In this document: piece by piece, positions 14,057-29,574 of the stretch
Position numbering within the stretch: the first letter of the stretch is position 1
Layout: every line of letters starts with the position of its first letter
IMG/VR virus record: IMGVR_UViG_3300047510_001118
Span: 62,001-126,000 of that record
Strand: one strand, 5' to 3'
Source: a virus
DNA: 64,000 nucleotides
Notes under the pieces: model-generated
Databases searched by the model: none
What the model saw: only the letters and a program-made list of their open reading frames with translations
Told to the model about the DNA's origin: nothing
Program-made: the position numbers and the translations under genes

Positions 14057-14709
14057 TTTAATAGAAATTCCATTACTAGACACAATCGATGGTCGTCACT
14101 CTTGTGTTCTCCAACTGCGTGTGGAAGGTCAACTTTATGTATAACTAGATCTCCGGTTTTAACTGACACAGGAAATATTTCTTCCTTAGGTATGGATCGA
14201 GGATCTATACCCATCTCACAATATCTTCTAGTATTTTTTAAAATTAGTAAATCAGCACTGTTATCCGGTGCTTGTAGATAAAAGATTGCTACGACTTTTT
14301 TAGGTGAATTAGGATCGCTGTCATCGTCGTGCGTATGACAATTACCAAAGGATCCGTTATACATTACATTCATCCAGTTGATAGTTAACTGCGGTTTAGA
14401 TGTCAAATCTAAATCAAAGTGCTCTGCTACGGACTGTACTTTTTCTGATATCCATTCTAACAACATTTCTGAATTTTGAAAATCAAAAAAAGACCTTGCT
14501 GGAGTTTCAAAACTACTCCATACTAATGTTTCTCCGCTGACGCTATTTTTGTCTAGGTTACATGACTGATTATCTCTTATATTTGAATCTTTAAGTTCTT
14601 TTAAGGCAGAATCAATCCAGACTGGTTGTATATGTTTTCCGTCGTCGGCCAAGTTAAACTTGTAAATGTCATAGCCAAATGCTGATATTTTCTCTTTAAA
14701 ATTGTTCAT
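14053..14709 (-). CDS. 2OG-Fe(II) oxygenase-like protein
   Basis: The C-terminal half has the double-stranded beta-helix marks: NCHTHDDD (His-125/His-127/Asp) as the first iron ligand region, then DLVIHKVDLPHAVGEH with His-197 and Arg-208 for 2-oxoglutarate. VAIFYLQAP lies between them as in phage and prolyl-hydroxylase-like families. It would hydroxylate a protein or small molecule using 2OG and O2. It is coupled on both sides by four-base overlaps, so it is an integral member of the unit. Confidence 0.8.
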   Translation of the reverse strand: MNNFKEKISAFGYDIYKFNLADDGKHIQPVWIDSALKELKDSNIRDNQSCNLDKNSVSGETLVWSSFETPARSFFDFQNSEMLLEWISEKVQSVAEHFDLDLTSKPQLTINWMNVMYNGSFGNCHTHDDDSDPNSPKKVVAIFYLQAPDNSADLLILKNTRRYCEMGIDPRSIPKEEIFPVSVKTGDLVIHKVDLPHAVGEHKSDDHRLCLVMEFLLK

Positions 14710-16217
14710 TTGAAACTGTATCCTAGTTTATTATTTTTATAGTTTTCTAAAAATATAGGAAAATTTCTATAGTAAGGACCTAAAGACTTAGCACTTCCCC
14801 TTATTTTTTCTTTTAATGAAATAATTTTTCCATTATCATCTGGTAATATATTTGAAAGATAAAAAGGATCTAACCTTGACAAATCGTGCTGTCCTACTTT
14901 CCAAATATCGAAAAACTCTTTTACCCATTTATGAACTTGAATAACATTTAAATGATCATTTTCCCATGCTATGCTTCCAAAACTGCTGTGCTTAATCATA
15001 TCTTTAAATGCGGCTTTTACTTTTTCATCATCTGTTATATTCATCTCTCTGTAGCCATATTTTTTATAATCTAGTGATAACTCTGATGGCCTAAACTCAT
15101 CTGCTATTCGTTGTATCTCTAATGTATTAGCCATAGCCACTTGATCTGTCCAGTTTTTTCTAAACCAGTCACTTGTTTCATTTAAAGATTCAATAGTCTC
15201 ATACGGCAATCCACCGATCATTGCGATTATAGCACGATATAATCCATTGGATTTTTCTGTAAAGTATTTTTTAACTTCTATTAGTCCTTCTTTTACTTTA
15301 TCCGGATGCATGCCTTTGCCAATGACTTTTCCGCTTGCGTGGTTAAATGTTTCAACACCGTAAAAGTGTCCTAGAAACCCCATACGGATTAAATGATCCC
15401 AATCTTGTCTACGACTAATCAATAAGTCTGCTCTTATATAACCTGTAAAATATGGTTTGAATGGCAATGTTTCAACAACGTCAGCAAATTTAATAATTTT
15501 TTCTGTATGATCATTAAACGTTTCATCTGATACAATATAATTTTCAATTCCAAACTCGTCGTAATTTCTTAATAATTGATTTTTTACACTATCAGCATCT
15601 CTAGTATGATCCTCTTTAACTCCTAAGATAGGATAGTTACAGTACAAACATTTAAATTTACATCCCCTAGTAAACTCAATCATACCCCACTCGCCTGGTT
15701 GAATAAAATCTCGTTTTTCGTAAAAGATTGTTGCGTCTTTAAAAGGATAAGCCGGATACATATGAAGCGCATTAATAATTTTTGTATTGCCTTTAGATCT
15801 AACTACGTCAAATTTGGGTTTTTCGCCGTTACTAAACAAATATTTTAGAAGGGCATCTAAAGCATATTCTCCATACCCGGCAATATGATAATCAAAGTGT
15901 TTCATATCGGGTAGCATAGTTTGACCGCCGGACATTAACACAATATTGGGATATTTTTCTTTAATCCAAACACATAAATCTCGTATCTTATTTTCCGCAT
16001 CGGCATTGTTAAACAAAAAACTAAAACCAAAAAATTTCATGTTTTCGTCAACTCTGCTATCTACTAATTCTTTTAGTTCTTCTAATTCCCAGTAATCAAC
16101 AAAGTCTATAACTTCAACATCCCAGTCTTGTTTTCTAAGGTGAGTAGCGATTCTGTGAGCGCCAGAACTTCTATACATTGTATAATTGTTAACGGTAAAA
16201 AATAAACTTTTGTTCAT
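14706..16217 (-). CDS. B12-binding-domain radical SAM enzyme
   Basis: Residues 1-130 look like a cobalamin-binding-type Rossmann domain (SSGAHRIATHLR, GFSFLF, SGGQT, AGYGEYAL), though the His-loading DxHxxG motif is absent. C186-x3-C190-x2-C193 (RGCKFKCLYC) is the radical SAM cluster site, followed by a SAM barrel. Relatives perform methylations, ring contractions or C-C chemistry. At 503 aa it is the largest of eleven radical SAM proteins here and the first in the downstream half of the unit. Confidence 0.88.
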   Translation of the reverse strand: MNKSLFFTVNNYTMYRSSGAHRIATHLRKQDWDVEVIDFVDYWELEELKELVDSRVDENMKFFGFSFLFNNADAENKIRDLCVWIKEKYPNIVLMSGGQTMLPDMKHFDYHIAGYGEYALDALLKYLFSNGEKPKFDVVRSKGNTKIINALHMYPAYPFKDATIFYEKRDFIQPGEWGMIEFTRGCKFKCLYCNYPILGVKEDHTRDADSVKNQLLRNYDEFGIENYIVSDETFNDHTEKIIKFADVVETLPFKPYFTGYIRADLLISRRQDWDHLIRMGFLGHFYGVETFNHASGKVIGKGMHPDKVKEGLIEVKKYFTEKSNGLYRAIIAMIGGLPYETIESLNETSDWFRKNWTDQVAMANTLEIQRIADEFRPSELSLDYKKYGYREMNITDDEKVKAAFKDMIKHSSFGSIAWENDHLNVIQVHKWVKEFFDIWKVGQHDLSRLDPFYLSNILPDDNGKIISLKEKIRGSAKSLGPYYRNFPIFLENYKNNKLGYSFK

Positions 16218-17125
16218 ATAATGTATCTTAAGTCTTTCTTATCACATAGCTCTATTACAGCACGATCACAATACTTACAGACTTCGTACTGCATACTTAG
16301 AATCTTTTCGTAGTCGCCATCCCATTCTTTGCCTTTGCTGGCTTCTAAGAAGAGATAACAGGGATATACTTTGCCGTTTATGTCTACCTGCTGACTCTTG
16401 TTTTCCCAACTCATACAGTAAGCCTTACCTTTGACAGGACTAGCATATTTGGCCCTAGCAAACTTATCCATGTACATGTAATCATCGATCTTTTTAGGAT
16501 TAGGACGCAGTTTAATTAAGTTTGTTTTGTCCACATAGTTGGCTTCATCTTTCTGTAAGAAAGTCTCAGTCCAATACACATGACTAAACTCACTAACCAT
16601 TTCTTTAAATTTAGGACTGTCAAAGTCCTCCGAGTTGTAGTAGAACCTGATACACTGGGCATAGTCATTTTTACTAGGTCCACGGAAAGCGCGAGCATTT
16701 TCTAATATCCTTTTTAAATTTGTTCCTGTACGATAAATTTCGTGTAGTTCTTGTGTGCTACCGCAGATACTAAAATATACTTTGTCGTTGGCATTCATCA
16801 GTGTGGCTAGCTCTGCCCACCATTCTGGCTTGTGCGTATCTCCGTTAGTACAGATTTCAATCTTTAATCCTCGATCCTTCATGTACTTGACTAAAGGAAA
16901 GAAATATTTGTACATGGTAGGTTCTGATATAGTACCAACAAGACGTATCCATTCTAAATCAGGGAAGGTTTCTAACTGTGCTATAACTTCATCCAAGGGT
17001 CTAACTTTATCTTCGGGATAGTGTTCTTTAAATGCTGTGTAGTTACGATAACACAGGCCGCACTTGGCATTACAGTATGTTGTAAGTTCTAACTCTAGGT
17101 CAATGACCTTAGGCATCTTCAGCAT
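16214..17125 (-). CDS. radical SAM protein, paralogue trio A (1 of 3)
   Basis: Cluster cysteines 18, 22, 25 (CNAKCGLC). It shares with the next two genes a long set of landmarks: R-x-L-D near 40, SEPTMYK, TNG(D/N)T then EWW, CGSTQE(L/I)H and R(F/Y)-x-YN. After the barrel it has a Cys-containing C-terminal domain (CYLF, CKYCDR) that may hold auxiliary clusters. Substrate unknown. ATG 17116 is an alternative start. Tandem duplication is the simplest origin. Confidence 0.88.
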   Translation of the reverse strand: MLKMPKVIDLELELTTYCNAKCGLCYRNYTAFKEHYPEDKVRPLDEVIAQLETFPDLEWIRLVGTISEPTMYKYFFPLVKYMKDRGLKIEICTNGDTHKPEWWAELATLMNANDKVYFSICGSTQELHEIYRTGTNLKRILENARAFRGPSKNDYAQCIRFYYNSEDFDSPKFKEMVSEFSHVYWTETFLQKDEANYVDKTNLIKLRPNPKKIDDYMYMDKFARAKYASPVKGKAYCMSWENKSQQVDINGKVYPCYLFLEASKGKEWDGDYEKILSMQYEVCKYCDRAVIELCDKKDLRYII

Positions 17126-18048
17126 ACAAAGTCCAATCCCATTTTATCAATAAAGGTACGTGTGCGCTTCTCACATAGGAAACAATCTGGAAACTTAAAG
17201 GATAGGATATCACCGTAGTCCATGTCATCCTTGTCTGCTGGAAAGTAGTCTTGCTCGTTCTCAGCGTGAGTATAGCAGGCACTGACCTGTCCCCATTGAT
17301 TGATATAAATCTTTTTAGATTGCATACTACGACATTGTATGGTATATTGTTTTCCATCATTAGGCTCTGGGCGATTCTTAAACAACAACTTGATAGTTTG
17401 CTCCCGGGTCTTAACTGGACGAATGCCTAGTTCCACTTCTTTATTGTAGACGTTTACTCTACGCACACCTTCTGTTTCAACTTTCATTACACGACTAAAT
17501 TGATCAAAGATTGCTTTCATCGCAGGGCTTTCTCTATCCTCAGCATTGTACTCAAATCGTATATGTTGTATCCAATCGTTCTTGCGACCATTTTTACGAA
17601 AAGCAGCCGCATTATCTAATATTTGTTGTAGGTCACTGCCCACACGATACTTGGCATGTATTTCCTGTGTACTTCCGCAAACAGTAAAACAACACATACA
17701 CTTTTCAGGTACGATACTGCCTAACTGTTCCCACCATTCAGTATCGCGTGTATTGCCGTTGGTAAAGATTTCATAATAGATGTCACGACTGTTTAGGTAT
17801 TCAATAAACTTAATAAAGTCTTTGTACATTGTAGGTTCACTGACTACACCCGCAACAAAGAAACGTTTAAGTCCCGTGTATTGATCTAATTGTTTAATAA
17901 TAGTATCAATGTCACGTACATTCTTTTCTACTAGATGATTTGCGTGTTGATAGTTACGAGTACATAGTGGGCAGGAAAGGTTACAGACTCCTGTTAAGTC
18001 CATTTCCATTTCTTCCACTTCACTCTTTTTCATCGTAACCTGCGTCAT
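17119..18048 (-). CDS. radical SAM protein, paralogue trio A (2 of 3)
   Basis: Cluster cysteines 22, 26, 29 (CNLSCPLC) in a 309-aa protein. It keeps VSEPTMYKDF, NGNT plus EWWEQLG, VCGSTQEIH and DWIQHIRFEYN as in its neighbours. The C-terminal part has CYTH and FLCEKR cysteines suited to an auxiliary iron-sulfur domain. Start overlaps the previous stop by four bases. Confidence 0.88.
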   Translation of the reverse strand: MTQVTMKKSEVEEMEMDLTGVCNLSCPLCTRNYQHANHLVEKNVRDIDTIIKQLDQYTGLKRFFVAGVVSEPTMYKDFIKFIEYLNSRDIYYEIFTNGNTRDTEWWEQLGSIVPEKCMCCFTVCGSTQEIHAKYRVGSDLQQILDNAAAFRKNGRKNDWIQHIRFEYNAEDRESPAMKAIFDQFSRVMKVETEGVRRVNVYNKEVELGIRPVKTREQTIKLLFKNRPEPNDGKQYTIQCRSMQSKKIYINQWGQVSACYTHAENEQDYFPADKDDMDYGDILSFKFPDCFLCEKRTRTFIDKMGLDFVC

Positions 18049-18962
18049 CCCATTCGCTCCATACCATTACTTTCTAACATTGTCTTAGTCATGCTTTCGC
18101 ATTCGTAGCAGTAACGATTATTAAATTCAAATATATCGCTGTAGTCGTTGTGATCAAACGTCCTATTGTCATATATTCTATGTAGGAAGCAAGGATGCTC
18201 TCCTCCAAAATTATCAACAAACAAAAATTTTAATTCAAAACTCTTACATTTCATTGAACACTTAGTTCCGCTGTCATATCGTTTAAGGACAGCATTACGA
18301 ATTACATTGTATTTTTCACCCAACTTGCCGGCCATCTTTATATCGTTGTTAGGATCTTTAATTATATTAAACCGTTCTTGATAAGGAGCAGACTCGCAGA
18401 CATACAAATGATTAAATTCTTTAATAATCTTTTTCATGTCATCTGATTCTAGATTATCTTTGTTGTATTCAAAACGGATCAACTGTATCCAGTCGCTGGT
18501 ACATCCCGATTTACGAAATGCTTCAGCATGTCTTAACACTTGTTCTAAACTAGAATTGACACGATATTTTTCGTGTAACTCTTGTGTTGTGCCACAGACT
18601 GTAAACAGCACACGGTCTCTATCTTTAACTAGAGTTCCTAGTTCTTCCCACCACTCTTCTTTGTGTGTGTTAGCATTAGTGTATAGATCAAAACAAATGT
18701 TTCTAGAATTGAGGTATTTTATTAACTCTAAGAATTCTTTGTACATTGTAGGTTCACTGACTGCTCCACTTAGACAAGTGTATTTTAAATTTGGAAAACT
18801 ATCTAGGTGAGCAATCCATTCCTCTAAAGGACGGATGTGCTTGACATTAAGATGTTTAGCATTTTCATAACTTCTAGAACAAAGTGGGCAATCAAGATTA
18901 CAAGTACCCGTAAGCTCAAGTTCCAATTCTAGTATTTCTTCGCGTTTTAATCCAATAGTCAT
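18045..18962 (-). CDS. radical SAM protein, paralogue trio A (3 of 3)
   Basis: Cluster cysteines 21, 25, 28 (CNLDCPLC). AVSEPTMYKEF, TNANTHKEEWW, VCGTTQELH and DWIQLIRFEYN match the other two copies nearly word for word, so divergence after duplication is recent enough to see by eye. C-terminal CFLH and YCYECES supply further cysteines. Different C-terminal halves suggest different substrates for one shared chemistry. Confidence 0.88.
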   Translation of the reverse strand: MTIGLKREEILELELELTGTCNLDCPLCSRSYENAKHLNVKHIRPLEEWIAHLDSFPNLKYTCLSGAVSEPTMYKEFLELIKYLNSRNICFDLYTNANTHKEEWWEELGTLVKDRDRVLFTVCGTTQELHEKYRVNSSLEQVLRHAEAFRKSGCTSDWIQLIRFEYNKDNLESDDMKKIIKEFNHLYVCESAPYQERFNIIKDPNNDIKMAGKLGEKYNVIRNAVLKRYDSGTKCSMKCKSFELKFLFVDNFGGEHPCFLHRIYDNRTFDHNDYSDIFEFNNRYCYECESMTKTMLESNGMERMG

Positions 18963-19573
18963 AGGTATATTATACTGTCAAAGTCTTTCTCTTTAAACAC
19001 TCTCATTTTTGATTCTTCGCTCATTCTGTTATGGTGTTTGGCCAGCATGGCGTGTTTTAATTTGGTAGATAGTATTACTCCATTAATACCTTCTGGATTA
19101 GTAGCCGCAACAAGATGGAACTGTATCTGTGGGTATTTATTGAGGAACGCTTCTAGATTTTTAAAATTGTTATCTGTTACTATTAATAGATACTGTAAAT
19201 TTAATTCTGAATCAATTATTATATCGTCCTCCGGATCTAAGTTCTCGCTACAGTGATATAGGACAGTATCAAAACGAGGCAACAGATCACGATAGCGTTT
19301 GATAAACAGTCCGTTAGTGTTGATGCTAGGACGGCAACCTTTCTTCTCTAGTTCGTCTAGGATGTATTCAATGTCTTTGCGTTTCATACTACCCACTTCA
19401 CCGCCACTGAGTGTTACATTATATCCAGGAATAACTTTATCTAACTTGGCTTTTACTTCATCCATGGTCAGTGTAGGACGATTGTGTGTATCAACACAGC
19501 AATAGTCACAGTGCCAGTTACATACCCATGTAACAACTAATTCAATTTCTCGTTCTTGTGCGTGAATTGCCAT
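18959..19573 (-). CDS. short radical SAM protein, paralogue trio B (1 of 3)
   Basis: I start at ATG 19573, which overlaps the upstream stop as TAATG, giving 204 aa. CNWHCDYC (18, 22, 25) binds the cluster; DTHNRP, SGGEVGS, NTNGLFIKR and YHCSENL are shared with the next two genes. QueE-like in size but with the normal CX3CX2C spacing. No C-terminal auxiliary domain. Confidence 0.87.
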   Translation of the reverse strand: MAIHAQEREIELVVTWVCNWHCDYCCVDTHNRPTLTMDEVKAKLDKVIPGYNVTLSGGEVGSMKRKDIEYILDELEKKGCRPSINTNGLFIKRYRDLLPRFDTVLYHCSENLDPEDDIIIDSELNLQYLLIVTDNNFKNLEAFLNKYPQIQFHLVAATNPEGINGVILSTKLKHAMLAKHHNRMSEESKMRVFKEKDFDSIIYL

Positions 19574-20151
19574 TAGTGCCACCTTGCCACAACTGTGATG
19601 AATTCTTGTAATGATCCTGGATGTACTTTATCTCCGTGTTCATTAAAGAAGTCCATCATTAAGTTTAAGTTAATCTTCTTTTGACTACGCACATCTGGTA
19701 ACAACAGAAACTTAATGTGCGGATAACGTCTAATCATTTCATGTATGCTTCCATCTAAGAAGTTTGTGTTTGTAACTACAAGTCCGTAGGCTACATGATC
19801 TAACTGTAAGTCCGGAAACTCTATGTCGTCGGGCAAGTATTCAACACAATGATAATGTATCTTACCAAACTCGTGTACCAACGGCATATGACGTTTAAAG
19901 AACAGTCCGTTGGTTAATAAATCAATTACACAGTCTTTATTTTTCAAGATGCCAATTATTTCTTCTAACTGTTCACGCTTTAACAGTCCAGGTTCACCAC
20001 CACCAAAGGTAACTTCTGTGCCTGGTTCGATGGCATGTACTCTACGCAGAACTTCTTCGTAAGGCAACTCTGGACGATTGTGTGTGTCTGCTACACAATA
20101 GTCACAGTGCCAATTACACTTATAAGTTAAAGGAAGTTCTATTTCTTTCAT
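19573..20151 (-). CDS. short radical SAM protein, paralogue trio B (2 of 3)
   Basis: 192 aa, the smallest radical SAM protein here. CNWHCDYC at 12-19, DTHNRPELP, GGGEPGLL (SAM-binding GGE), LTNGLFFKRH and YHCVEYL align with both neighbours. It must be close to the minimum for a SAM barrel. Coupled by four-base overlap to the upstream copy. Confidence 0.87.
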   Translation of the reverse strand: MKEIELPLTYKCNWHCDYCVADTHNRPELPYEEVLRRVHAIEPGTEVTFGGGEPGLLKREQLEEIIGILKNKDCVIDLLTNGLFFKRHMPLVHEFGKIHYHCVEYLPDDIEFPDLQLDHVAYGLVVTNTNFLDGSIHEMIRRYPHIKFLLLPDVRSQKKINLNLMMDFFNEHGDKVHPGSLQEFITVVARWH

Positions 20152-20816
20152 CTCAGTGCTTTTAATTTCCGTATATCATTTACTTCTCTACAGGTCGTAA
20201 TCAAATGTATGTAACTGTTTGGATCAATACGATCTTTAAATTCTTGATACACTTTAAATCCGTTTGTTCTACTAAGTCCTTTGCCAATAACGTTATCTGC
20301 GCCAAATACTAAAAATTTAATATCTGGATACTTGTTGATATAGTATTCTAATCTATTCATAGTATCATCGGTGATTACTAATTGGAAGTCTATCCTAGAC
20401 TGTTCAACATAATTTGGAATCCATATTTCATCGTCATCCAGGTGCTCACTACAGTGATATAAAAAACTATCAGGTATATGGCAAAGGTTACGATGCTTTT
20501 TAAAAAATGTACCATTGGTGTTTACATTTATGAAACAGCCCTTGTCTTTCAATGTAGTCAGTAGCCAAAGCATTACTTCTTTGTTTAATGTTCCGGGCTC
20601 ACCGCCTGTAATGGCCACATCTGCTCCCTGAGGTATCTTATCTACTTTCTCTTTTAATTGCTCAATCGTTATATCTTTTCTATTATGTGTATCTTCACTA
20701 CAGTAATCGCAGAACCAATTACATTTGTAAGTCACATAGAGAGTATAGGAATTGGCTCCGTCTAGGCCTCCTTGAAAGAACTCGTAGTTTTCGTGTAGAT
20801 TATTCCCAGCAATCAT
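20148..20816 (-). CDS. short radical SAM protein, paralogue trio B (3 of 3)
   Basis: I use ATG 20816 (222 aa); a longer frame to 20903 would overlap the SDR gene by 104 bases. CNWFCDYC at 32-39, EDTHNRKD, TGGEPGTL, NTNGTFFKKH and YHCSEHL match trio B. A 30-residue N-terminal extension (FFQGGLDGANSY) is unique to this copy and could be a substrate or partner site. Confidence 0.86.
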   Translation of the reverse strand: MIAGNNLHENYEFFQGGLDGANSYTLYVTYKCNWFCDYCSEDTHNRKDITIEQLKEKVDKIPQGADVAITGGEPGTLNKEVMLWLLTTLKDKGCFINVNTNGTFFKKHRNLCHIPDSFLYHCSEHLDDDEIWIPNYVEQSRIDFQLVITDDTMNRLEYYINKYPDIKFLVFGADNVIGKGLSRTNGFKVYQEFKDRIDPNSYIHLITTCREVNDIRKLKALR

Positions 20817-21432
20817 ATACTCTTCCGTTCTGTGTATCGCCAAATATGTGTTCGTAAACTGTGTTAAATTGTCTGTGATACTTTTCTTTGTCTTCATAGT
20901 CAAACATAGGACTCACTGAACTAACATTTACACCTTTGTCGTTATGTTCAGCCAAGGCTAACATTAACTGATGTTGATAGGCTTTGCCGCCATAATATCC
21001 TAACTTGTCTAAACCAAAACTACGTTCTCTATCGTAAATTACATCAGTGGTCATGAACACAATTTTAGATTGACTGTTCATTTTCTTTAATGCTTCTATG
21101 GATAACGTGTGTGGTATAATTGTCTGTACATAAAATCCCTGTATGTATAACTTTTCTTTTATTATTCCTTTGCTGGTAAAAGAGTCAGGTTCATTGGGAT
21201 ATCCTTTATAAGCAGAGTTGTATAATAAAATATCAATTGTATCTAAGTCCTCTGTTACGGTATTAAATTTAACAACCGCATCTTCCGCAGTTAAGAATGT
21301 TAAAGTCGCATCAGTATCGTTGCCAGTCCTATGAGATAGTACACGAACAGCATGTCCGTTGGACTTTGCTTGGCGAACAAAGTCGTTACCAAATTGTCCA
21401 AACCTACTGCCGCCGACTACAACAATATTCAT
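20800..21432 (-). CDS. short-chain dehydrogenase/reductase-like protein
   Basis: N-terminal VVVGGSRFGQFGNDF is a Rossmann beta-alpha-beta start; LLYNSAYKG resembles the NAG region and YYGGKAYQ gives the YxxxK catalytic pair, with a TTD before it. 210 aa is short for the family. It lies within the radical SAM run and likely oxidises or reduces an intermediate of the same pathway. Confidence 0.72.
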   Translation of the reverse strand: MNIVVVGGSRFGQFGNDFVRQAKSNGHAVRVLSHRTGNDTDATLTFLTAEDAVVKFNTVTEDLDTIDILLYNSAYKGYPNEPDSFTSKGIIKEKLYIQGFYVQTIIPHTLSIEALKKMNSQSKIVFMTTDVIYDRERSFGLDKLGYYGGKAYQHQLMLALAEHNDKGVNVSSVSPMFDYEDKEKYHRQFNTVYEHIFGDTQNGRVYDCWE

Positions 21433-22454
21433 TTGTAGTATCCTTGTCTATAGAAGTTTACCTGATCAATCTTTTCGCCAGGTTCGGGTCTCAGTGTTAC
21501 ATTCTTAATCTGTTTCTCTACACCGTCACAGATATAGTAATGCTTACAGTTTAAACAGTCTTTGGTTTTATAATAAGTTCTATTGCGTTTGAATGCCGCC
21601 GCATCATACAGAGCCTTGTGTGGGTCCGCACGATACACCTGTGGATCTATGTCACCATTGTACACAGCAATATTCCAATCGTAGATGTCATAGATATGTT
21701 GATAGTAATTACAGACATACTGCTCATAGCCCTTCATAAAACAATAGGGCGTGTATCGAACATTGATCTTCTCTACAATATCTTTAAGTAAGTCTATGGC
21801 CTGATGTACATAGGGAGTAACTTCAGCATAGTCTATGGTTTCCTGTGCGCCAGCATCGTCCCAATAGTTCAGTGTTAGGAAGTTTACTTCAAATGGTTTG
21901 AGTTCTTTGACTAGCTCAACAAACTTAGTAGGCAAGCTCTTATAATTCTTATGTGTGACTGTACAGTTAACTCTAACCAACACTCCTAGTTCGTGTGCGT
22001 TTTTAATTGCCTGTACAATGTTCTCAAAGCCTTTGCGATGTCCTACTAGGATGTTGTGGCTTTCTTTATCATAGCCGTGTACTGAGAACAGTATTTCTTC
22101 TAAGCCGTGCTCTTTGCTTTTACGTAAGAACTCTTTGTCGGCAAACTTGTAGCCGTTGCTCAGTGTGCTGACCTTTAGTCCTTTACTCTTACAGTAGTCC
22201 AGTATGTCAAACCATTGCTTGTGTATACTACTTTCTCCGCCACTGAGATCTGCTTCTTTGATGCCGCAGGCTACAAGATAGTCTATTCGTTGTCGTATGG
22301 CATCGAACTCAGTTACATCATTTAACTGTGTTTTGTAATAGCAGAATTCGCAACGATAGTTACAGTGAGTGCCAGTGTCTAACTTGGCACGTTCACAGAT
22401 TGGTTCGTCACGGTCTATCTGTAACTTGTTGCTGAGTTCGTTGTAAAGTCTCAC
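21429..22454 (-). CDS. radical SAM protein with SPASM-like end (341 aa)
   Basis: CNYRCEFC at 31-38, LSGGESSIHK for SAM binding, TLSNGYKF, and LFSVHGYDKESHN. The C-terminal KDCLNCKHYYICDGV matches the CxxC-x5-CxG ending of SPASM/twitch domains, which hold auxiliary clusters and often act on peptides. Its start overlaps the upstream gene by 47 bases. Confidence 0.87.
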   Translation of the reverse strand: MRLYNELSNKLQIDRDEPICERAKLDTGTHCNYRCEFCYYKTQLNDVTEFDAIRQRIDYLVACGIKEADLSGGESSIHKQWFDILDYCKSKGLKVSTLSNGYKFADKEFLRKSKEHGLEEILFSVHGYDKESHNILVGHRKGFENIVQAIKNAHELGVLVRVNCTVTHKNYKSLPTKFVELVKELKPFEVNFLTLNYWDDAGAQETIDYAEVTPYVHQAIDLLKDIVEKINVRYTPYCFMKGYEQYVCNYYQHIYDIYDWNIAVYNGDIDPQVYRADPHKALYDAAAFKRNRTYYKTKDCLNCKHYYICDGVEKQIKNVTLRPEPGEKIDQVNFYRQGYYK

Positions 22455-23271
22455 GTTCTATCTCTTGGTATTGTTGATCAACTGGCACAGGATTGATCAT
22501 ATATTTCTTTTTACTTTCGGCCATTAGTTTAAAACTGCTGATGCTTTCCTTGTAACAGGTTCTACTAAAACTACTACAGTGTTTGACACAGATGCTTTGA
22601 CTGTCAAAAAACTTGTAGCGTATTGGATCTGTCAGTGCGTCTTTTAATGATGTATTGTGTAAGTTAGCAAAGGCTACCCTATCGTTAGGTGGTGTGTTGT
22701 CTTTGACAAACTTACAGAATACTACATCGCCATTGGCCATAATCTTAGGCATACTATGGAAGTGGCATTTGAGTTTAGGATCAAACTCTTCTGTTATCTT
22801 TGTGCCTGTGTAGTTAAACTCGTAACCATAATCTCTACGCTCTAGTTTATATTGTATGCCGTTAGCATCTAATTCTTCTAAACGTTTATGTACAATATCA
22901 AATAGATTCTTATCCATTGCTGTTAGTTCTTTGAAACGAGCAGGAGTATCTCCGTAGTAACTGACACAGAGTTTAATATTGTTCATAGGAACTTCTGCCA
23001 ACTTACGTACATTAACTGCGGTAACATTAGTAAACACAATGGTATACTTCATATGTTCGTTGAGGAACGCTAACATTTCATAGATGTCAGGATGTAAGAA
23101 TGGCTCTCCCTTTGCGGGGATAAGATCTATTTCAGTAATGCCCATTTCCTTTGCTTCAAGTATTATTCGTTTGAACAAGTCCAACGGCATATACTTTGGT
23201 TCAGTAATGTCTTTGGCTTTACAAAAATAACACTTGAAGTTACAGTACTCTAGGATCTCTACAACAATCAT
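22408..23271 (-). CDS. radical SAM protein with SPASM-like end (287 aa)
   Basis: The cluster site is very close to the N-terminus (CNFKCYFC, 10-17). PAKGEPFLHPD replaces the GGEP motif, and VFCKF ... CVKHCSSFSRTC gives a SPASM-type cysteine set near 235-250. The last 30 residues are charged and extend beyond the fold. Substrate unknown. Confidence 0.86.
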   Translation of the reverse strand: MIVVEILEYCNFKCYFCKAKDITEPKYMPLDLFKRIILEAKEMGITEIDLIPAKGEPFLHPDIYEMLAFLNEHMKYTIVFTNVTAVNVRKLAEVPMNNIKLCVSYYGDTPARFKELTAMDKNLFDIVHKRLEELDANGIQYKLERRDYGYEFNYTGTKITEEFDPKLKCHFHSMPKIMANGDVVFCKFVKDNTPPNDRVAFANLHNTSLKDALTDPIRYKFFDSQSICVKHCSSFSRTCYKESISSFKLMAESKKKYMINPVPVDQQYQEIERETLQRTQQQVTDRP

Positions 23272-24164
23272 ATTATACCTTTAAGTATGTTCACAAGGTC
23301 GTCACTGGGTCTTAGACACAGACTATCAAAGTCGTTTTCTATATCCCAGTTGCGCCAGTACAATCCGCGATCCTCGTCCCAATAATCGATATTGTGGAAA
23401 ATTACGGATTTACCGTAATATTTACATTCTGCTATGAACCTGGGACTACAATCCCATTTACGCTTAACTGGAGTATAGACGTAAGTGCCAAACTGTTCAA
23501 ACAAGTCGTTCACAGGAGGAATTACAAAAGTAAATCCATTTATAGATTTAGGCATATTCTCTTTGTTTGTTATAACTAGGATGTCATTGCCGTACTGCGT
23601 TAGTTCTTCATAGGAGTCTAACTGTCTACAGTTCTTAGTAGCATAGACCAACACTGAATCCTTACTAGGACCCAGTGTTTTTAATCTATCAAATAGAATC
23701 TTCTTTTTATAATTGACACCGTTTTTCTTTACAAGTTCGTAGACGCGATTGTCTTGTAAGATCCATACATTATCTTTGTCGTTGTCTTTGATTTCTTTAT
23801 TGCCGCAGGCAAAGTAAAAGATGTTATCAAATAACAGTGTCACCGGCCGCATATTAACTATGCCGCCGTCTGTGAATATTATGTTGCGTCCCTTGACCAA
23901 TGTAGGTCTATTGGCAAACACTGTGTTAGATTTGATATCCTCTATCTCTTCGTCTGTGAAATTGTATTTGCCACGGATACTGGATTCAAACGTTGGCCAG
24001 TCAATGTCTTCGCAGAGCAGTACTCCAACTTTGAAATCATTTCTTAGAGTAAAGTAATAATCTATAACTTCATAGGTGTGTCCACAGATGCCATGATTGT
24101 TATTGCTCCAAGAGTAACTAAGCCAAAGATCATAGGAGTCGTCTAACTGTGTTATCTTAGACAT
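23268..24164 (-). CDS. possible GT-B-like glycosyltransferase (298 aa)
   Basis: Alternating hydrophobic strands and the C-terminal CSPRFIAECKYYGKSVIFH recall the nucleotide-sugar site of GT-B transferases (PRxxxEAxxxG). No DxD. Together with the next upstream gene, which overlaps it by 13 bases, it could form the two halves of a transferase. This is a weak call; the genes are real but the activity is inferred. Confidence 0.5.
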   Translation of the reverse strand: MSKITQLDDSYDLWLSYSWSNNNHGICGHTYEVIDYYFTLRNDFKVGVLLCEDIDWPTFESSIRGKYNFTDEEIEDIKSNTVFANRPTLVKGRNIIFTDGGIVNMRPVTLLFDNIFYFACGNKEIKDNDKDNVWILQDNRVYELVKKNGVNYKKKILFDRLKTLGPSKDSVLVYATKNCRQLDSYEELTQYGNDILVITNKENMPKSINGFTFVIPPVNDLFEQFGTYVYTPVKRKWDCSPRFIAECKYYGKSVIFHNIDYWDEDRGLYWRNWDIENDFDSLCLRPSDDLVNILKGII

Positions 24165-24940
24165 GCTCGCACCATAGGACAGTTTTCTGTGAGAGTATAG
24201 TTACCTAGTCCGTTGACAACTATATCGTTGTAGCGTAATTGTATCGAGTCAGTGTTGAGATTGTAGGGTTCTTCTACAGTCACAGTCTTACCATAAAAGA
24301 ATCCTTCTGGTATGATCCTGTTGTTGGTATCTCTGACTACATGGATGTAATGAACAGCATCAATTTGATCAAATAGATCTCCAATGCCTGTATGTTGTTT
24401 TTTTAATAAGATAGGACGATTGAATTGTGTCTTTAATCTTTCATATTCATAGCGTATGTACTTTGGATCAAGACAACTGACAAATACGCCAGATTGACTC
24501 TTACAGGGTCTGAATATTTCAAAGTTTAATTTTAAGATACATTCTACATCGTAGCGTTGATATGGATACAATCCATAGTAGGTAACTGTGCGATTATTCT
24601 TATAACGAAACATCTCGTGTGTGTCATTGCTGAAACAATGTATTTCGTTGGTTAAGAATTCTTTACAGTCATAGAAAGTGTTTACATCGAGGATGAGTGT
24701 ACGATCAAGATTGAGTTTATATAACTCAACTAAGGTAACTGGAATTATGTTGTCAACTACAGTGTCGTATTTTGCCGTAAGGATTTCAACGACTAGTTCT
24801 AGATCCTTTGCGTCTATACCAACAATATAAAACTTTGCGTCAACATACTTTCTTAGAAATTTAAAGTATTCGAAACAGTAAAACAATGTTCCGTTGATCT
24901 TATTGTGTGGTTTAAACTTGTATACAACACCATAGTTCAT
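24152..24940 (-). CDS. phage protein, possibly a glycosyltransferase partner (262 aa)
   Basis: Aromatic-rich alpha/beta protein with LILDVNTFYDCKEFL in the middle and NGLGNYTLTENC near the end. No firm motif. The order and overlap with the GT-B-like gene suggest joint function. Start ATG 24940 lies three bases after the upstream stop. Confidence 0.6.
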   Translation of the reverse strand: MNYGVVYKFKPHNKINGTLFYCFEYFKFLRKYVDAKFYIVGIDAKDLELVVEILTAKYDTVVDNIIPVTLVELYKLNLDRTLILDVNTFYDCKEFLTNEIHCFSNDTHEMFRYKNNRTVTYYGLYPYQRYDVECILKLNFEIFRPCKSQSGVFVSCLDPKYIRYEYERLKTQFNRPILLKKQHTGIGDLFDQIDAVHYIHVVRDTNNRIIPEGFFYGKTVTVEEPYNLNTDSIQLRYNDIVVNGLGNYTLTENCPMVRACLR

Positions 24941-24942
24941 TA

Positions 24943-25560
24943 TCAGAAGTTTGCGTAGAATCGCTCTAAGAATCGCTCTTCTATGGCTTTGATTTCTTCA
25001 ACTGTGGTAGCCGCACGTATTTCATTTCTAAATGCCGTGAACTTACGTTCTAAGTGTGCCACTGCTTCAATTTCGTCTTTGTAGTTGAGATAATCTTCTA
25101 ACTTGGCGATTAGTTTTTCGTCGCCAGTTTCTAAAATTTCTAGATACTTTTCTTCACGATTTTCATTAGTGATAAAATATCCGTTGGCGGCCATGTCGTT
25201 GTTTAATACAATAAATCCGTACATGGCAAAGCCGCTGATCTTAGATAGTTCTGGAGTTACCAGCATACGTATTTTGACTACAGACGCATCTCTGGCTTCT
25301 TGAATTGGATCTGTTTCTTTTAGATCAATGACATCAAACTCTCCAGGTAATACTTCTCCTGTCTGTAGAGTCTTGTGGATGTGTACTCGCTTGCCTTCCA
25401 TCAGTGCCTGTTTGATCAACTGATGGCTCATGTAAGAAAGACGCAGAATCTTTTCGTCTTTGTCTGCTTGATTATCTAGTGTGTTTTGAGTTACGTTTGT
25501 TACAAACCAATGTGTGCCACGGTCTTGTACTGTGGCTAAATCATATATGATGCTACTCAT
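24943..25560 (-). CDS. phage protein of unknown function, next to fibre-like protein (205 aa)
   Basis: An acidic, helical C-terminal half (residues 135-205) suggests a coiled coil; the N-terminal half is mixed alpha/beta with SKISGFAMYGFIVLNNDM. It starts two bases after the fibre-like gene's stop. A chaperone or assembly partner for the fibre would fit the position, but nothing in the sequence proves it. Confidence 0.75.
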   Translation of the reverse strand: MSSIIYDLATVQDRGTHWFVTNVTQNTLDNQADKDEKILRLSYMSHQLIKQALMEGKRVHIHKTLQTGEVLPGEFDVIDLKETDPIQEARDASVVKIRMLVTPELSKISGFAMYGFIVLNNDMAANGYFITNENREEKYLEILETGDEKLIAKLEDYLNYKDEIEAVAHLERKFTAFRNEIRAATTVEEIKAIEERFLERFYANF

Positions 25561-25561
25561 C

Positions 25562-26350
25562 TTATTCCTTTACTGTTGTTGGTTCGCTCCAAAGTTCTCC
25601 GTTGTTAGGTAGTCTGTCGTAGTGTACTCTAAAGAACCCTTGCTCATCGATTTCAACAGCATGAGAGTATTCGCTTTGTAATATCTCTCCAGCCATAACA
25701 CCGATATACTTTGTTTCAGGATCCCATGTATAAGTGTAACTGTAGATATTAATTCCTTCACGTGTGCCAAGGAATTTGATGTTTTGTTTTAGACGCTCGT
25801 CACTGTAGTTACAGCCGCAGTCTCTGTGGCAGTTACATACAGCATTACAGGTACAGTCTGAGTTACAAATACAATCTTGACGCATGATGTTGTATTTGTC
25901 ACGTAGAGCAATCCAGTGACTGTCGTCAATTAGTGCGCCTGAGCTATAACTATTGGCAGGAGTCGTAGCATCTGCCGGGTTAGTATACACAGCCGCGGTG
26001 CTACCTACAGGCTCAGTAACGTTATTTGTCTGTTGAACCATTAATTCTAAATCGTTAATCTGTGCGGCGGAAATAACAGTGCTAGTGCCGAACGCACTAG
26101 TTTGGCGATTAGCAACACCGCTGAAATGATTAACTGTTCCGCTGTTAGTTGTATGTGTTTTATAGCGGTCTAATTCTGCATTTATTTTACTACGTAAATC
26201 TTCGATATCAGCCGCAGTAACACGACCTGTGGTTACAGCAAATTCTGTACTAGATGACAATGGTCTGTTTGTAGAGCAGGCTCCACGATGATTTGAACAG
26301 GTTGTTGTTCCTGAACTATTTAAATTACAAAATGTTCCGCTACAAGCCAT
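25562..26350 (-). CDS. fibre-like protein with (CxCxxx)4 stretch and S74 chaperone
   Basis: Three parts are visible. Residues 1-30 have Cys-3, 8, 18 and 25. Residues 35-155 are a Thr/Ser/Asn-rich body. Residues 160-180 hold eight cysteines in a strict hexad, C-x-C-x3 four times (160/162, 166/168, 172/174, 178/180). Directly after comes SDERLKQNI (183-191), the start of an intramolecular chaperone/peptidase S74 domain, whose Ser and Lys cut the chain just before it. After self-cleavage the cysteine hexads would be the new C-terminus of a trimeric fibre. The gene is flanked by a SPASM radical SAM gene one base upstream. Metal binding, disulfides or thioether modification are all possible; none is shown. 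Confidence 0.85.
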   Translation of the reverse strand: MACSGTFCNLNSSGTTTCSNHRGACSTNRPLSSSTEFAVTTGRVTAADIEDLRSKINAELDRYKTHTTNSGTVNHFSGVANRQTSAFGTSTVISAAQINDLELMVQQTNNVTEPVGSTAAVYTNPADATTPANSYSSGALIDDSHWIALRDKYNIMRQDCICNSDCTCNAVCNCHRDCGCNYSDERLKQNIKFLGTREGINIYSYTYTWDPETKYIGVMAGEILQSEYSHAVEIDEQGFFRVHYDRLPNNGELWSEPTTVKE

Positions 26351-26351
26351 T

Positions 26352-27524
26352 TTAATATATTTCCTCTTGTTTGATTTCCTCGGGCTTTTTGGCTAGTTCT
26401 TTGTCTAGATAAGCCTGAACTGTGCGATCGATTTCCCCAAATGCTTTGTAGAAACCGCACATGTTATTTACCCAACGATCAGTCCAACGATCAAAGTAAT
26501 CTTCTTTCTTGCTGTTATCTAAGCTCGAAACAGGGCAAATCATACAGGTTGTGGCCACACAGCCCTTACAGATATCGCTGACTTCACGTGCTTTTGGCTG
26601 ATAAGTTGTGGCCATTTTAATAACTTTATCGATAAAATCAGCATCATCGATATTGCCGCCCGATGCCATTTGCTCTTTATTTGGACTATATAACGAACCG
26701 TGGCAAGCGTAACTGTTACCATCTACGTTGATAGCATGCATTGATGCTCCGCTTTGGCAATGACTCTTAGCATCCCCACCGTCAAACCAAGTACACAAAT
26801 GATGTCCGTATTTTTTAACAAACGCAATCTCTTCCTTGGCAATCATCAACATCTCTTTGCGGAAGTCTGCTACCATATCCGGCATTTTATCTATAGGAAG
26901 ATCTGTTACGTAGTCAATCGTAGGTGCGTACTCAACGCGGCAGTTAGGGCCAATGTCTTTGAATCTCTCATACAATGTTTTATAATCTTGCCAAGCATTG
27001 TAGATACCTCTCATTGTTGATAGGGGAACTGTGGCCTTTAGGCTTAGGTTAACACCCTTGCGAGCAAAGTATTCAAAGTTCTCAATAACCTGTGCTGATG
27101 TAGGTTTACCGCTGTGTGTTAATCGGAACTTGTCGTTGATGTTCTTACCATCGTAACTAAACTGAATGTTTAGTTTTTTAATATTGATATTATCTAATAC
27201 ATGTTCTAAACGTTTACGATTGTAACCGTTGGTATAGATATGGAATCCAATGTTTTCAATGTGTTGGAATTCCTTCATAATATCAATAATTAGATCTCCA
27301 TTAAGGGTTGGCTCACCGCCCCAAAAGTCGATCATCAGTTCATCATAGTTCTCTTTGAACCAAGCACTTTCGTAGAACTCTCTGATACGTACTTTTAAAA
27401 TATCTACTTTATCGTCGAGTCGGCGTGTATCTGTCTTTACACCTTCGAAGCAATATGAGCAACCTAGATTACACAGTGCTGTGGTTGTAACTTCTAGTGT
27501 AAATGATCCTTTTGATACTTTCAT
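26352..27524 (-). CDS. SPASM radical SAM protein, anSME-like (390 aa)
   Basis: CNLGCSYC at 18-25, DFWGGEPTLN for SAM, QFSYDG, and a C-terminal cysteine set (CHGS; CKGCVATTCMICPV; MCGFYKAF) that fits two auxiliary clusters of the SPASM type seen in sulfatase-maturating enzymes and RiPP maturases. Such enzymes oxidise Cys/Ser side chains or form thioether links in proteins. It sits immediately upstream of the cysteine-hexad fibre gene, so that protein is the obvious candidate substrate. The link is inferred from adjacency only. Confidence 0.88.
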   Translation of the reverse strand: MKVSKGSFTLEVTTTALCNLGCSYCFEGVKTDTRRLDDKVDILKVRIREFYESAWFKENYDELMIDFWGGEPTLNGDLIIDIMKEFQHIENIGFHIYTNGYNRKRLEHVLDNINIKKLNIQFSYDGKNINDKFRLTHSGKPTSAQVIENFEYFARKGVNLSLKATVPLSTMRGIYNAWQDYKTLYERFKDIGPNCRVEYAPTIDYVTDLPIDKMPDMVADFRKEMLMIAKEEIAFVKKYGHHLCTWFDGGDAKSHCQSGASMHAINVDGNSYACHGSLYSPNKEQMASGGNIDDADFIDKVIKMATTYQPKAREVSDICKGCVATTCMICPVSSLDNSKKEDYFDRWTDRWVNNMCGFYKAFGEIDRTVQAYLDKELAKKPEEIKQEEIY

Positions 27525-27751
27525 TTGATATCCTCAATGTTTAATATTTCGTCTAAGACTGACATCATTGTTTCCTCGCTGACCTTTTCTGGTTCTTCTT
27601 GGATGATGCCTAGCATATCTTCAGCAAGTTTGGCTAGATATTCTGCTTCCTCTTGAAACAGTTCTTCGTTGGACAAATGCTTGCTGGCTTCTAATAAGTG
27701 GAAGCTCGCATTGTATAGTGCCCTATTCATTTTCTTAATACTCGTAGCCAT
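27521..27751 (-). CDS. small helical protein between two SPASM genes (76 aa)
   Basis: Almost wholly alpha-helical and acidic toward the end, without cysteines. ATG 27751 has a GGAA ribosome site inside the upstream gene; Met-8 (27730) is an alternative that avoids the 17-base overlap. Small proteins between RiPP maturases are sometimes recognition or escort proteins, but no RRE-like fold can be claimed here. Confidence 0.72.
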   Translation of the reverse strand: MATSIKKMNRALYNASFHLLEASKHLSNEELFQEEAEYLAKLAEDMLGIIQEEPEKVSEETMMSVLDEILNIEDIK

Positions 27752-28760
27752 CTTCGTATTCCTTTTCCATTTCTTCTTTAACGACTTGTTTAAAATCTGG
27801 GTTATTTTTTAGGGCCGCTGTCATGCGTTTAACTTCTCTATACGTATATTTATAGATATCGCAGAGCTCGACTATAGGACCTTGGTTTTTAATCTGCTCA
27901 AATAAACAGCCCTTTTTACAGTAATTCTTAACTTCACAGGTCTGACAAACGGGCATTTGGGCATATTTGGGTATAGCCGCTATCATGTCCGGACTGTCTT
28001 TAAAACGTGTACAGGGCACAACTTTGTTTTCGCTGAACATAAACATATTTGTACCAGCACCGCAGTTATCCGTAGTAACACCTTTGCTGTGATAATCCAA
28101 AAAGTGTCTTAGATAGAACAGCACAAAGTAAGGCATGCCCTGTTCTGGATTGGCAATATACCAGTCAAACATCTCAGTAATGCCTACTTTGAGTTTATCA
28201 ACGCTGTCCTGATCCCAAGTACCTACGTCACGTACCAGTGTAAGTTCTGGGTTAAATCCAAAGTGCTCTTTGATCCATAGATGATTTTCCAATAAGTTAT
28301 AACAGCCTTTGGTTATCATGCTGTGGCAACTGACTTCGGGTAACTTCTTAAACAGTTCTCGCTTTTCAAAGAAACGTTGTTTAGTTCCTTTGCCGTTTAA
28401 CTGTAGTCTATTCTTATCCTGCCATAGTCCATCAAAACTGATAGAAACTTCTATGTTGTTTCTAACTAGGAAGTCTACAGTTTCTTCTGTAAGCAGTAAT
28501 CCATTTGTAGGCATGAATAGTTTGATGTTGCCATCATCACGCACACCTTCTAGTATCTCTTCTATCAAATCTATCTGTAGCAAGGGCTCGCCACCAAAGA
28601 AGTCTATCTTAATTGTTTCATCTGGATATTGCTCACGCATCTTACGGAACTCAGCCAAATACAACACAGGGTCAATACGATTCTTAGACCACTTGTCTAC
28701 TCCGCAATATGAGCAGTTAAGATTACATTTTTCGGATAGAACAACTAATAATGTCTTCAC
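27735..28760 (-). CDS. SPASM radical SAM protein (341 aa)
   Basis: CNLNCSYC at 12-19, DFFGGEPLLQ, MPTNGLLL, SISFDG and a C-terminal CQTCEVKNYCKKGCLFE that matches a SPASM cluster site. Related to the anSME-like neighbour but with a shorter C-terminus. Overlaps the dehydrogenase stop by four bases. Likely a peptide or protein modifier. Confidence 0.88.
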   Translation of the reverse strand: MKTLLVVLSEKCNLNCSYCGVDKWSKNRIDPVLYLAEFRKMREQYPDETIKIDFFGGEPLLQIDLIEEILEGVRDDGNIKLFMPTNGLLLTEETVDFLVRNNIEVSISFDGLWQDKNRLQLNGKGTKQRFFEKRELFKKLPEVSCHSMITKGCYNLLENHLWIKEHFGFNPELTLVRDVGTWDQDSVDKLKVGITEMFDWYIANPEQGMPYFVLFYLRHFLDYHSKGVTTDNCGAGTNMFMFSENKVVPCTRFKDSPDMIAAIPKYAQMPVCQTCEVKNYCKKGCLFEQIKNQGPIVELCDIYKYTYREVKRMTAALKNNPDFKQVVKEEMEKEYEDGYEY

Positions 28761-29494
28761 TGTCTATATACCTTGTTTAACAACAGCACAACATCTAGCA
28801 AAGGTACATCAAACTCTTTGGCCAATACTTCTGTGTCTTTGGGTAGGCATGGGCCTCCGAACCCTCGCTCTCCATCTGGTCCCGGCACTTCAAAATGATG
28901 TGTGCCCATCCATGGATGATTGCGTAGGATACCTGTAACCATTGGCCAGTCTGCGCCTACTTGATTTGCCACATCATACATCTGATTCATAAATGTAAGT
29001 TTGGTAGCATAAAAACTGTTCATACAGTATTTGGCCATACAGGCATTTTCCACTGTGGTCAACACTACTCTGTCTAAATTAACTGTGCTCAGTGTTTCAT
29101 ATATATTTAATAGACGCTGTGCTTTATCCGAGTCTCCACCTATGATCACCATAGGAGGATTTACAAAGTCTTCGTTGGCTGTGGCTCTACTTAAAAACTC
29201 AGGATTAAACAACACGTCATAATCTTTGATATACTTTGGCAGTATCGTACTCTTAACTACTGTGATGCCTTGATAGCCTGTGGCTTTGATTTGATCCAGC
29301 ACAGAGGTCAGTGTGGAATAATTACTGTCATCTGTAGGTGTAGGTACACAGACAAATATAGCCAGGGGCTCTTGTCTACAGATTGCTTCAACAGTTACAG
29401 TATTATATTTTGGGTCTGAGTAAACAGCAGTGGTTTTAGAAAAGCCAAACTTTACTGCCTTGCCCACCATGCCTAGGCCAATTATTCCAATCAT
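28757..29494 (-). CDS. truncated UDP-glucose/GDP-mannose dehydrogenase-like protein
   Basis: Residues 2-14 [13 protein letters not shown] bind [28 protein letters not shown], the [13 protein letters not shown] helix and [11 protein letters not shown] with catalytic Cys-216 are all family marks. The enzyme oxidises a sugar nucleotide 6-OH to a uronic acid. It ends at 245 aa, while bacterial Ugd is about 390 aa, so the C-terminal UDP-binding domain is missing; another protein may supply it. The ATG lies six bases after a -10 box, so the mRNA head should be leaderless. Confidence 0.87.
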
Positions 29495-29528: not shown

Positions 29529-29559
29529 CTCTTTTAACATATTTGTGGAATATTTATTG

Positions 29560-29567
29560 GTTAAATA
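29560..29567 (+). promoter_or_regulatory. late promoter-like box GTTAAATA
   Basis: Ends seven bases before ATG 29575. A TATACT-like string also lies in the gap, so an alternative -10 reading exists. Confidence 0.4.
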
Positions 29568-29574
29568 CTATACT

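Follow-up and report, generated by a model that had tools for sequence, protein, structure and literature searches.

The 64,000-nt stretch of DNA analysed here (the window; bases 62001–126000 of the 278,126-bp virus record IMGVR_UViG_3300047510_001118) encodes an island of eleven radical-SAM proteins at positions 14706–28760, and this island may combine two jobs. In the reading that we favour, with a confidence slightly above even, two neighbouring SPASM-type enzymes crosslink a fibre-like protein with a cysteine (Cys) repeat encoded directly beside them, and the other nine radical-SAM proteins serve an aminosugar or glycan pathway. The source virus is a giant T4-like phage; a T4-type gp23 capsid gene is present in the record (E 5.8e-99), so the label "phage" used in the initial annotation of the window was correct. 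No megablast-level DNA relatives were found among named phages.

That annotation listed eleven radical-SAM proteins, each with CX3CX2C, and this holds throughout: 11 of 11 open reading frames (ORFs), all on the minus strand, score above the curated PF04055 cut-off and carry the motif, which places every one of them in the radical-SAM superfamily. Among 22,000 shuffled versions of the 11 proteins, one sequence passed a two-motif test (CX3CX2C plus a GGE-type motif); because the GGE-type motif is absent from five of the real proteins (22408, the three at 16214–18962 and the B12-type protein; genes are named by their lower coordinate), this test shows only that the motifs are non-compositional, and chance matches were rejected on the Pfam scores and the shuffling result together. 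Extra Cys clusters in the C-terminal third were found in seven proteins (27735, 26352, 22408, 21429, 18045, 17119 and 16214) rather than in the five first counted. The eleven genes lie within an extended series of overlapping genes on the minus strand, an operon conserved in related phage contigs, and the same series carries nucleotide-sugar enzymes, an amidinotransferase and transferase-like genes. Beyond what was initially described, the eleven appear to split into unlike jobs, and two of them adjoin a fibre-like Cys-repeat protein. The genes of this fibre module are as follows.

27735..28760, minus strand: radical-SAM/SPASM maturase-like protein, 341 aa, the upstream partner (PF04055, 58.5 bits)
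27521..27751, minus strand: 76-aa ORF without cysteine between the two maturases
26352..27524, minus strand: radical-SAM/SPASM maturase-like protein, 390 aa, immediately preceding the Cys-repeat gene (PF04055, 43.9 bits)
25562..26350, minus strand: fibre-like Cys-repeat protein, 262 aa, directly after the maturases, the proposed substrate
25805..25873, minus strand: CxC[ND]x[DN]-type hexad repeat, residues 160–182 of that protein, ending just before the S74 Ser-Asp at residue 183
24943..25560, minus strand: 205-aa protein with a weakly DUF4376-like fold, after the Cys-repeat gene in the hexad and heptad lineages

Among PDB profiles, both enzymes match CteB best (5wgg; 2.2e-30 over positions 2–298 of the 335-position profile for 27735, 3.6e-17 for 26352), and the QhpD, PapB and SCIFF models rank among the better NCBIfam matches of both. 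Their C-terminal Cys pattern, which we take to be that of a SPASM domain, is strongly conserved, the cysteines of 26352 (256, 274, 319, 322, 327, 330, 356) being invariant in 9/9 aligned sequences and those of 27735 (233, 250, 272, 275, 281, 285, 300) kept in 12/12. As for CteB and PapB, a Cys-rich gene lies next door (25562–26350), in the putative role of substrate. A thioether product would fit, both maturases being closest to CteB and the hexads being rich in Asp and Asn; according to a review, known acceptors of such maturases include Asp, Asn and Thr. The 76-aa ORF is open at the same place in 8/8 sequences (L007 left out) and was rejected as a precursor peptide because it has no cysteine.

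The fibre-like protein begins with a Cys-rich N-terminus (about 26276–26344) and continues through a middle part of variable sequence to the block CICNSDCTCNAVCNCHRDCGCNY, which SDERLK and an S74-like domain follow. It is matched by phrog_6121, a virion structural protein family of PHROGs, at 50.1 bits, and by the S74 profile at 19.2 bits in one scan and 22.0 in another, the cut-off being 22. In endosialidase-type fibres, S74 domains cleave before Ser. SDxRxK occurs in 17/53 Cys-repeat ORFs, with the Ser 3 (15 cases) or 4 (2 cases) residues past the last CxC, and 32 of the 36 ORFs without it end at most 31 residues past the last CxC; owing to this spacing, the repeat would stand at or near the mature C-terminus in nearly every case, if S74 cuts before the Ser. 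Several proteins end about 12 residues after SDxRLK (L193, L201, L204, L227, L032, L033, L037), so this motif may have a second role. The product of 24943 is a possible fibre-assembly factor, for which the fold search returned weak, flexible matches only, to phage and DUF4376 proteins.

The pairing of enzyme and Cys repeat was examined from both sides. A profile scan with 26352 yielded 79 loci, in which ORFs were called mechanically and classed as CxC-rich (at least three CxC in 40 residues) or dense-Cys (at least 8 Cys in 40 aa). CxC-rich ORFs made up 42/1063, and 38 of the 42 lay within two genes of a radical-SAM gene, compared with 382 of all 1063 ORFs; such "near" counts are low because the radical-SAM regular expression misses members without a GGE-type motif. 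A dense-Cys ORF was present in 57/79 loci, and 51 of the 66 such ORFs were near a radical-SAM gene (Fisher 1.8e-12). When the enzymes were clustered at 80% identity, a dense-Cys neighbour was found for 34/62 clusters versus 20/374 control genes (more than four genes away, with a matched ORF in 76/79 loci), and for 44/62 versus 30/374 when the threshold was lowered to 6 Cys per 40 aa. The neighbouring repeats vary across the 79 loci and include hexads, CTCDCNY heptads, CxxG runs and CHSx runs.

From the other side, motif scans blind to the enzymes were made for DNA encoding CxCNxDCxCN (54 stretches) and for CTCDCNY (32 viral and 24 genome contigs), giving 110 stretches, of which 52 were genuine in that the motif lay inside a Cys-rich ORF with a length of 100 aa or more; the remaining 58 were not. 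A radical-SAM gene was present in 37/52 genuine stretches versus 2/58 others (Fisher 9e-15), both exceptions being Cys tails truncated where a contig or stretch stops, and at family level in 27 of 34 clusters. These counts are kept as computed, with one chance ORF (L231) in the genuine set and three truncated true cases in the 58-stretch control set (L130, L147 and L211, the last being the cut end of CP220's own gene); five of the 15 genuine stretches lacking a radical-SAM gene (L161, L166, L176, L190, L208) come from contigs that have one elsewhere. Two Thermoplasmata contigs and one Chloroflexi contig from metagenome-assembled genomes (MAGs), which may be viral, have both a Cys-repeat ORF and a radical-SAM gene on one stretch. 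The association is also class-specific: in loci found through 26352, a dense-Cys neighbour occurred for 56/128 maturase-class genes versus 6/101 other radical-SAM genes, a comparison that is partly circular because the loci were found with 26352, and in loci found through 23268, where this applies less, for 17/44 genes of the 26352/27735 class versus 3/145 others. Separately, unrelated phage proteins with CNCNCNC-type tails were seen with a radical-SAM gene about 0.7–1.5 kb away (L128, L130, L139, L152, L177).

Cultured phages of Campylobacter, Erwinia, Cronobacter and Salmonella (SPN3US) show the same pairing. A search of named phages with 26352 also reached Cronobacter phage CR5, Erwinia phage phiEaH2 and Salmonella phages, and relatives of the CR5 enzyme occur in 62 records, including SPN3US. 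Upstream of their radical-SAM pair, CR5, phiEaH2 and SPN3US each have two ORFs that start with a common N-terminus and end in a region with Cys at every third or fourth residue.

SPN3US, L239:4094–4486 (JN641803.1 143828–144220), minus strand: Cys-repeat gene 1, missing from the deposited annotation
SPN3US, L239:4497–4901 (JN641803.1 143413–143817), minus strand: Cys-repeat gene 2, over which SPN3US_0166 is annotated out of frame
CR5, L213:3142–3534 and 3546–3947: Cys-repeat genes, unannotated
phiEaH2, L214:3099–3482 and 3494–3892: Cys-repeat genes, unannotated

The deposited annotations examined place antisense or other-frame ORFs over these genes. The Cys-repeat frame is nevertheless the coding frame, because differences concentrate at the third codon position (34/17/77 over the three positions between the first ORFs of SPN3US and phiEaH2, and a surplus at the third position in four further comparisons). 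Among the gene products encoded nearby in SPN3US, gp168 is a tail protein (PMC5105663), and mutants and published virion mass spectrometry exist for this phage. In CP220, the 21-bp intragenic repeat of gp140 recorded by Timms et al. (2010; PMC2853527) encodes CTCDCNY-type units.

The block itself is shared. A viral-contig scan with the 26352 protein gave eight loci, two of them near-identical (L004 and L007), and the gene order 28757, 27735, 26352, 25562, 24943, 24152, 23268, 21429 is kept in 8/8; outside these eight genes, the island is a mosaic. The block sought in other phages is therefore syntenic in relatives, and the scattered distribution that the initial annotation named as evidence against its proposal was not what emerged. 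Its description of the density as exceptional fares less well: the density is real, but the 13 records behind the loci hold 2 to 11 radical-SAM genes each, with 11 in CP220 (177 kb), 11 in a 105-kb relative and 9–11 per contig in several relatives, so dense radical-SAM islands are a habit of the wider phage group. For the Campylobacter phages CP220 and CPt10, 11 and 12 radical-SAM proteins respectively have been reported, among them an exchangeable cluster of five that also holds a putative glycine amidinotransferase, and a metabolic boost was proposed (Timms et al., 2010; PMC2853527), and pelagimyophage host-recognition islands also acquire radical-SAM cassettes (PMC7029224). As in the CP220 module, homologues of radical-SAM proteins, the amidinotransferase and a sugar transferase stand together in the window, in a different gene order.

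Six of the eleven radical-SAM genes form two tandem trios.

20148..20816, minus strand: short radical-SAM protein, second trio (possible TTG start at 20903)
19573..20151, minus strand: short radical-SAM protein, 192 aa, second trio
18959..19582, minus strand: short radical-SAM protein, 207 aa, second trio
18045..18962, minus strand: radical-SAM protein with C-terminal cysteines, first trio
17119..18048, minus strand: radical-SAM protein with C-terminal cysteines, first trio, with CP220 homologues
16214..17125, minus strand: radical-SAM protein with C-terminal cysteines, first trio

The trios, which had been attributed to repeated duplication, are real paralogues, 17119 being 36–39% identical to the other first-trio members and 19573 35–37% to those of the second; recent duplication, on the other hand, was rejected on the grouping of orthologues in trees of window proteins and their phage orthologues. 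Each second-trio member clusters with its L005 and L008 orthologues (support 99–100/98–100), so these copies predate the divergence of these phages; in the first-trio tree, 16214 and 17119 likewise cluster with their own orthologues, and 18045 has no supported grouping. Judged from these trees, the trios appear to be mostly ancient paralogues. The second trio is shorter than MoaA/QueE yet closest to them among solved structures, and the first trio has Cys-pair C-termini and weak PDB matches (Tes, BtrN).

The remaining genes of the island and its flank are listed below.

28757..29494, minus strand: short nucleotide-sugar dehydrogenase-like gene, immediately preceding the 27735 homologue in 8/8 loci found with 26352
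24152..24940, minus strand: conserved protein of unknown function, possibly glycosyltransferase-related
23268..24164, minus strand: GT-B-fold glycosyltransferase-like protein (AlphaFold2, pLDDT 93.1)
22408..23271, minus strand: radical-SAM protein, 287 aa, weak SPASM (Pfam, NCBIfam, motif)
21429..22454, minus strand: radical-SAM protein, 341 aa, in 8/8 loci found with 26352
20800..21432, minus strand: 210-aa unknown protein with no Pfam match, short-chain dehydrogenase/reductase-like by eye only
14706..16217, minus strand: B12-binding-like/radical-SAM protein, 503 aa
14053..14709, minus strand: 2-oxoglutarate-Fe(II) oxygenase-like protein (PF13759, 33.4 bits)
13094..14083, minus strand: PseB-like nucleotide-sugar dehydratase (Polysacc_synt_2, 240 bits; PseB, 126.5 bits, cut-off 407.75)
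12507..13142, minus strand: PseC/DegT-like aminotransferase, short (211 aa; PF01041, 75.2 bits)
11683..12531, minus strand: homologue of CP220 proteins whose annotation names a nucleotide-diphospho-sugar transferase domain
10617..11690, minus strand: amidinotransferase (pentein; PDB profile HsvA 5wpi, 4.4e-49; CP220 gp086, 43.3%)
8328–9200, minus strand: NAD-dependent epimerase gene
7672–8331, minus strand: PIG-L deacetylase-like gene

The product of 10617 is a pentein amidinotransferase by its full-length matches to the solved structures of HsvA, AGAT, StrB1 and SxtG and its conserved GGxHC and DNHxDG motifs, which we take to be catalytic. The model of 23268 has a GT-B fold (VIA-align Z 15.2, root-mean-square deviation 3.6, 257 residues aligned to PimA 2gej), and homologues occur in 15 Campylobacter phage records. 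The PseB-like, PseC-like, epimerase, deacetylase and dehydrogenase genes all score under the NCBIfam equivalog cut-offs. The B12 domain noted for 14706 is matched by PF02310 at 27.3 bits, below the cut-off of 32.1. A close CP220 orthologue of 21429 was rejected at 23% identity, and CP220 gp185 as orthologue of 24152 at 17%. An amino-sugar pathway with guanidinylation would be the simplest common theme for the neighbours of the nine other radical-SAM genes.

The model that we favour starts from the observed enzyme class, SPASM cysteines, conserved adjacency, gene order, repeat position, GT-B fold and amidinotransferase homology. In it, 27735 and 26352 would bind the Cys-repeat protein, presumably their substrate, before or during trimer assembly, abstract hydrogen from Asp/Asn beta carbons and couple these to Cys sulfur within the CxC[ND]x[DN] hexads. 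By analogy with PapB-type (freyrasin) and QhpD-type enzymes, the outcome would be thioether-type crosslinks in a chain. The trimer would then be folded by the S74 chaperone domain, which would cleave itself off before Ser-Asp, so that the virion fibre would end exactly, at its C-terminal tip, with the crosslinked repeat. The nine other radical-SAM proteins, together with the nucleotide-sugar enzymes, amidinotransferase and glycosyltransferases, would make and attach an unusual amino sugar, possibly guanidinylated, to the virion (fibre) or the host surface.

Several observations weigh against this model. Both maturases fall far under every curated NCBIfam cut-off for maturases of ribosomally synthesized and post-translationally modified peptides (RiPPs): 113.7 (27735) and 80.4 (26352) bits for PapB (cut-off 340), 87.7 and 43.9 for the QhpD type (453), and 52.6 and 48.3 for the two with SCIFF (425). 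Their CX3CX2C begins at residue 12 or 18, so there is no room for the N-terminal RiPP recognition element (RRE) of CteB and PapB, although a separate RRE protein may exist. A dense-Cys ORF is missing in 22/79 enzyme loci, and the repeats are weaker in L028, L029, L032 and L037 and absent in L042. In 10 of 13 records checked, a Cys-repeat protein is encoded without any PF04055 match; these ten include short fragments, but also two records of 60 kb, one of 72 kb and one of 318 kb, and the pairing of Cys-repeat and radical-SAM genes is not obligate. In CP220, the Cys-repeat gene (gp140) is non-adjacent, about 2.2 kb from the 26352 homologue. The loci are non-independent samples, some contigs recurring between scans. 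The virion location of the Cys-repeat protein is one that we infer. For the second job, the family profiles of 23268 and 11683 returned nothing credible among PDB sequences.

An alternative that we regard as decidedly unlikely is that all eleven are auxiliary metabolic genes boosting or redirecting host metabolism, with the Cys-repeat neighbour of two being coincidental. Such a role is stated for CP220/CPt10 (Timms et al., 2010; PMC2853527) and for SPFM phages, and nine of the eleven genes have no Cys-repeat neighbour in the window; however, Cys-repeat neighbours are far more frequent than in controls, specifically for the maturase class, and most solved relatives of 26352 and 27735 modify peptides or proteins. 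The Cys-repeat tail may instead be a metal- or Fe-S-binding (metallothionein-like) or disulfide-bonded tip, the radical-SAM enzymes performing other chemistry (epimerisation, C–C or S-methyl) or maturing a metal site. CxC and CxxH spacing suits metal binding, the matches of 27735 include the tungsten-enzyme maturase model TIGR04317 and, at a weaker level in the PDB, the YydG epimerase, and the ten Cys-repeat records without any radical-SAM gene fit as well. We nonetheless consider a metal or disulfide tip doubtful: the best solved relative of both maturases is a thioether former, and the Asp, Asn and Thr at fixed places in the repeats match known acceptors. It is also unlikely that the nine others act on peptides or the Cys-repeat protein too, within one protein-maturation pathway whose glycosyltransferases glycosylate the fibre. 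That proposal would account for 23268 and 24152 in the core block beside the Cys-repeat gene and for the Cys-pair C-termini of the first trio, which we take to be like Twitch domains, but dense-Cys ORFs rarely adjoin the non-maturase classes (the 6/101 and 3/145 above), and in CP220 the trio homologues lie with amidinotransferase and sugar-transferase genes some 85–90 kb from the Cys-repeat gene.

Extended beyond the window, the crosslinking model would mean that many tailed-phage lineages, and viruses in archaeal MAGs, have tip proteins whose C-terminal Cys repeats (the hexad CxC[ND]x[DN], the heptad CTC[DNQ]CNY, CxxG/CSGx and others) undergo radical crosslinking by phage SPASM enzymes, a generalization that we advance tentatively and with less than even confidence. 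The short SDxRLK tail, sometimes the sole S74 remnant, may act as an enzyme docking signal. If the extension is true, crosslinked tips would be covalently hardened, disulfide-independent spikes or receptor-binding tips, and the radical chemistry of peptide natural products would also build virus particles. It would explain the 21-bp repeat inside the CP220 gene, with its CTCDCNY-type units, and the SPASM radical-SAM genes of several large phages, hitherto labelled host-metabolism boosters.

Other features were recorded outside the island.

29545–30777, plus strand: 5-aminolevulinate synthase gene, divergent from the island (568.9 bits, NCBIfam cut-off 338.55)
30761–31231, minus strand: DUF454 family protein (103.8 bits)
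51957–52206, plus strand: three tRNA genes, Met, Leu(taa) and Arg(tct)
L240:1723–2577 (record 257222–258076): QueE-like ORF, CX3CX2F replacing CX3CX2C
L240:3076–3900: FolE-like ORF, near the QueE-like ORF

The synthase presumably points to an alphaproteobacterial host (C4 haem pathway) and to haem or B12 supply, and the DUF454 protein is, to our knowledge, unusual for a phage. A search for RNA elements turned up only the three tRNA genes. A twelfth, weak radical-SAM match (257624–257860 of the record) lies inside the QueE-like ORF; this ORF and its FolE-like neighbour, names that we assume from their motifs, may belong to a 7-deazaguanine pathway.

This kind of island has been known in outline since 2010 from CP220 and CPt10, whereas what appears to be new is that SPASM radical-SAM genes are repeatedly paired with fibre-like Cys-repeat proteins; searches of the open-access PubMed Central literature yielded no paper that connects radical-SAM genes of phages with Cys-repeat virion proteins. 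Like CP220/CPt10, the phage is T4-like and rich in radical-SAM genes, and there are counterparts in CP220 of the first trio, of 11683, 23268 and 26352 and of the amidinotransferase (43.3%), as well as a Cys-repeat protein. The window differs in that CP220's 11 genes are spread over 177 kb with five clustered, whereas the window's 11 lie in 14 kb, and in adding the second trio, the B12-type protein and the fibre module in one operon. With CteB/PapB (SCIFF, freyrasin) and QhpD, the pair shares the SPASM cysteine pattern, sequence similarity and a Cys-rich neighbour, and QhpD likewise modifies a protein subunit, not a RiPP; unlike these systems, the pair lies under the cut-offs, lacks an N-terminal RRE, offers two enzymes per proposed substrate, and occurs in a virus beside a fibre-like protein ending in S74. 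The CXXX-repeat radical-SAM system (TIGR04115) resembles the two maturases at 64.9 and 54.6 bits, and its repeat resembles the CR5, phiEaH2 and SPN3US partners with Cys about every third or fourth residue, but the maturases are under the 350-bit cut-off and stand in a phage fibre-like context. Finally, like Peptidase_S74 fibre proteins, the Cys-repeat protein has SDERLK at the expected cut site and a profile score around the cut-off, and differs from them in that its Cys repeat directly precedes S74 and that several of its relatives retain only about 12 S74 residues.

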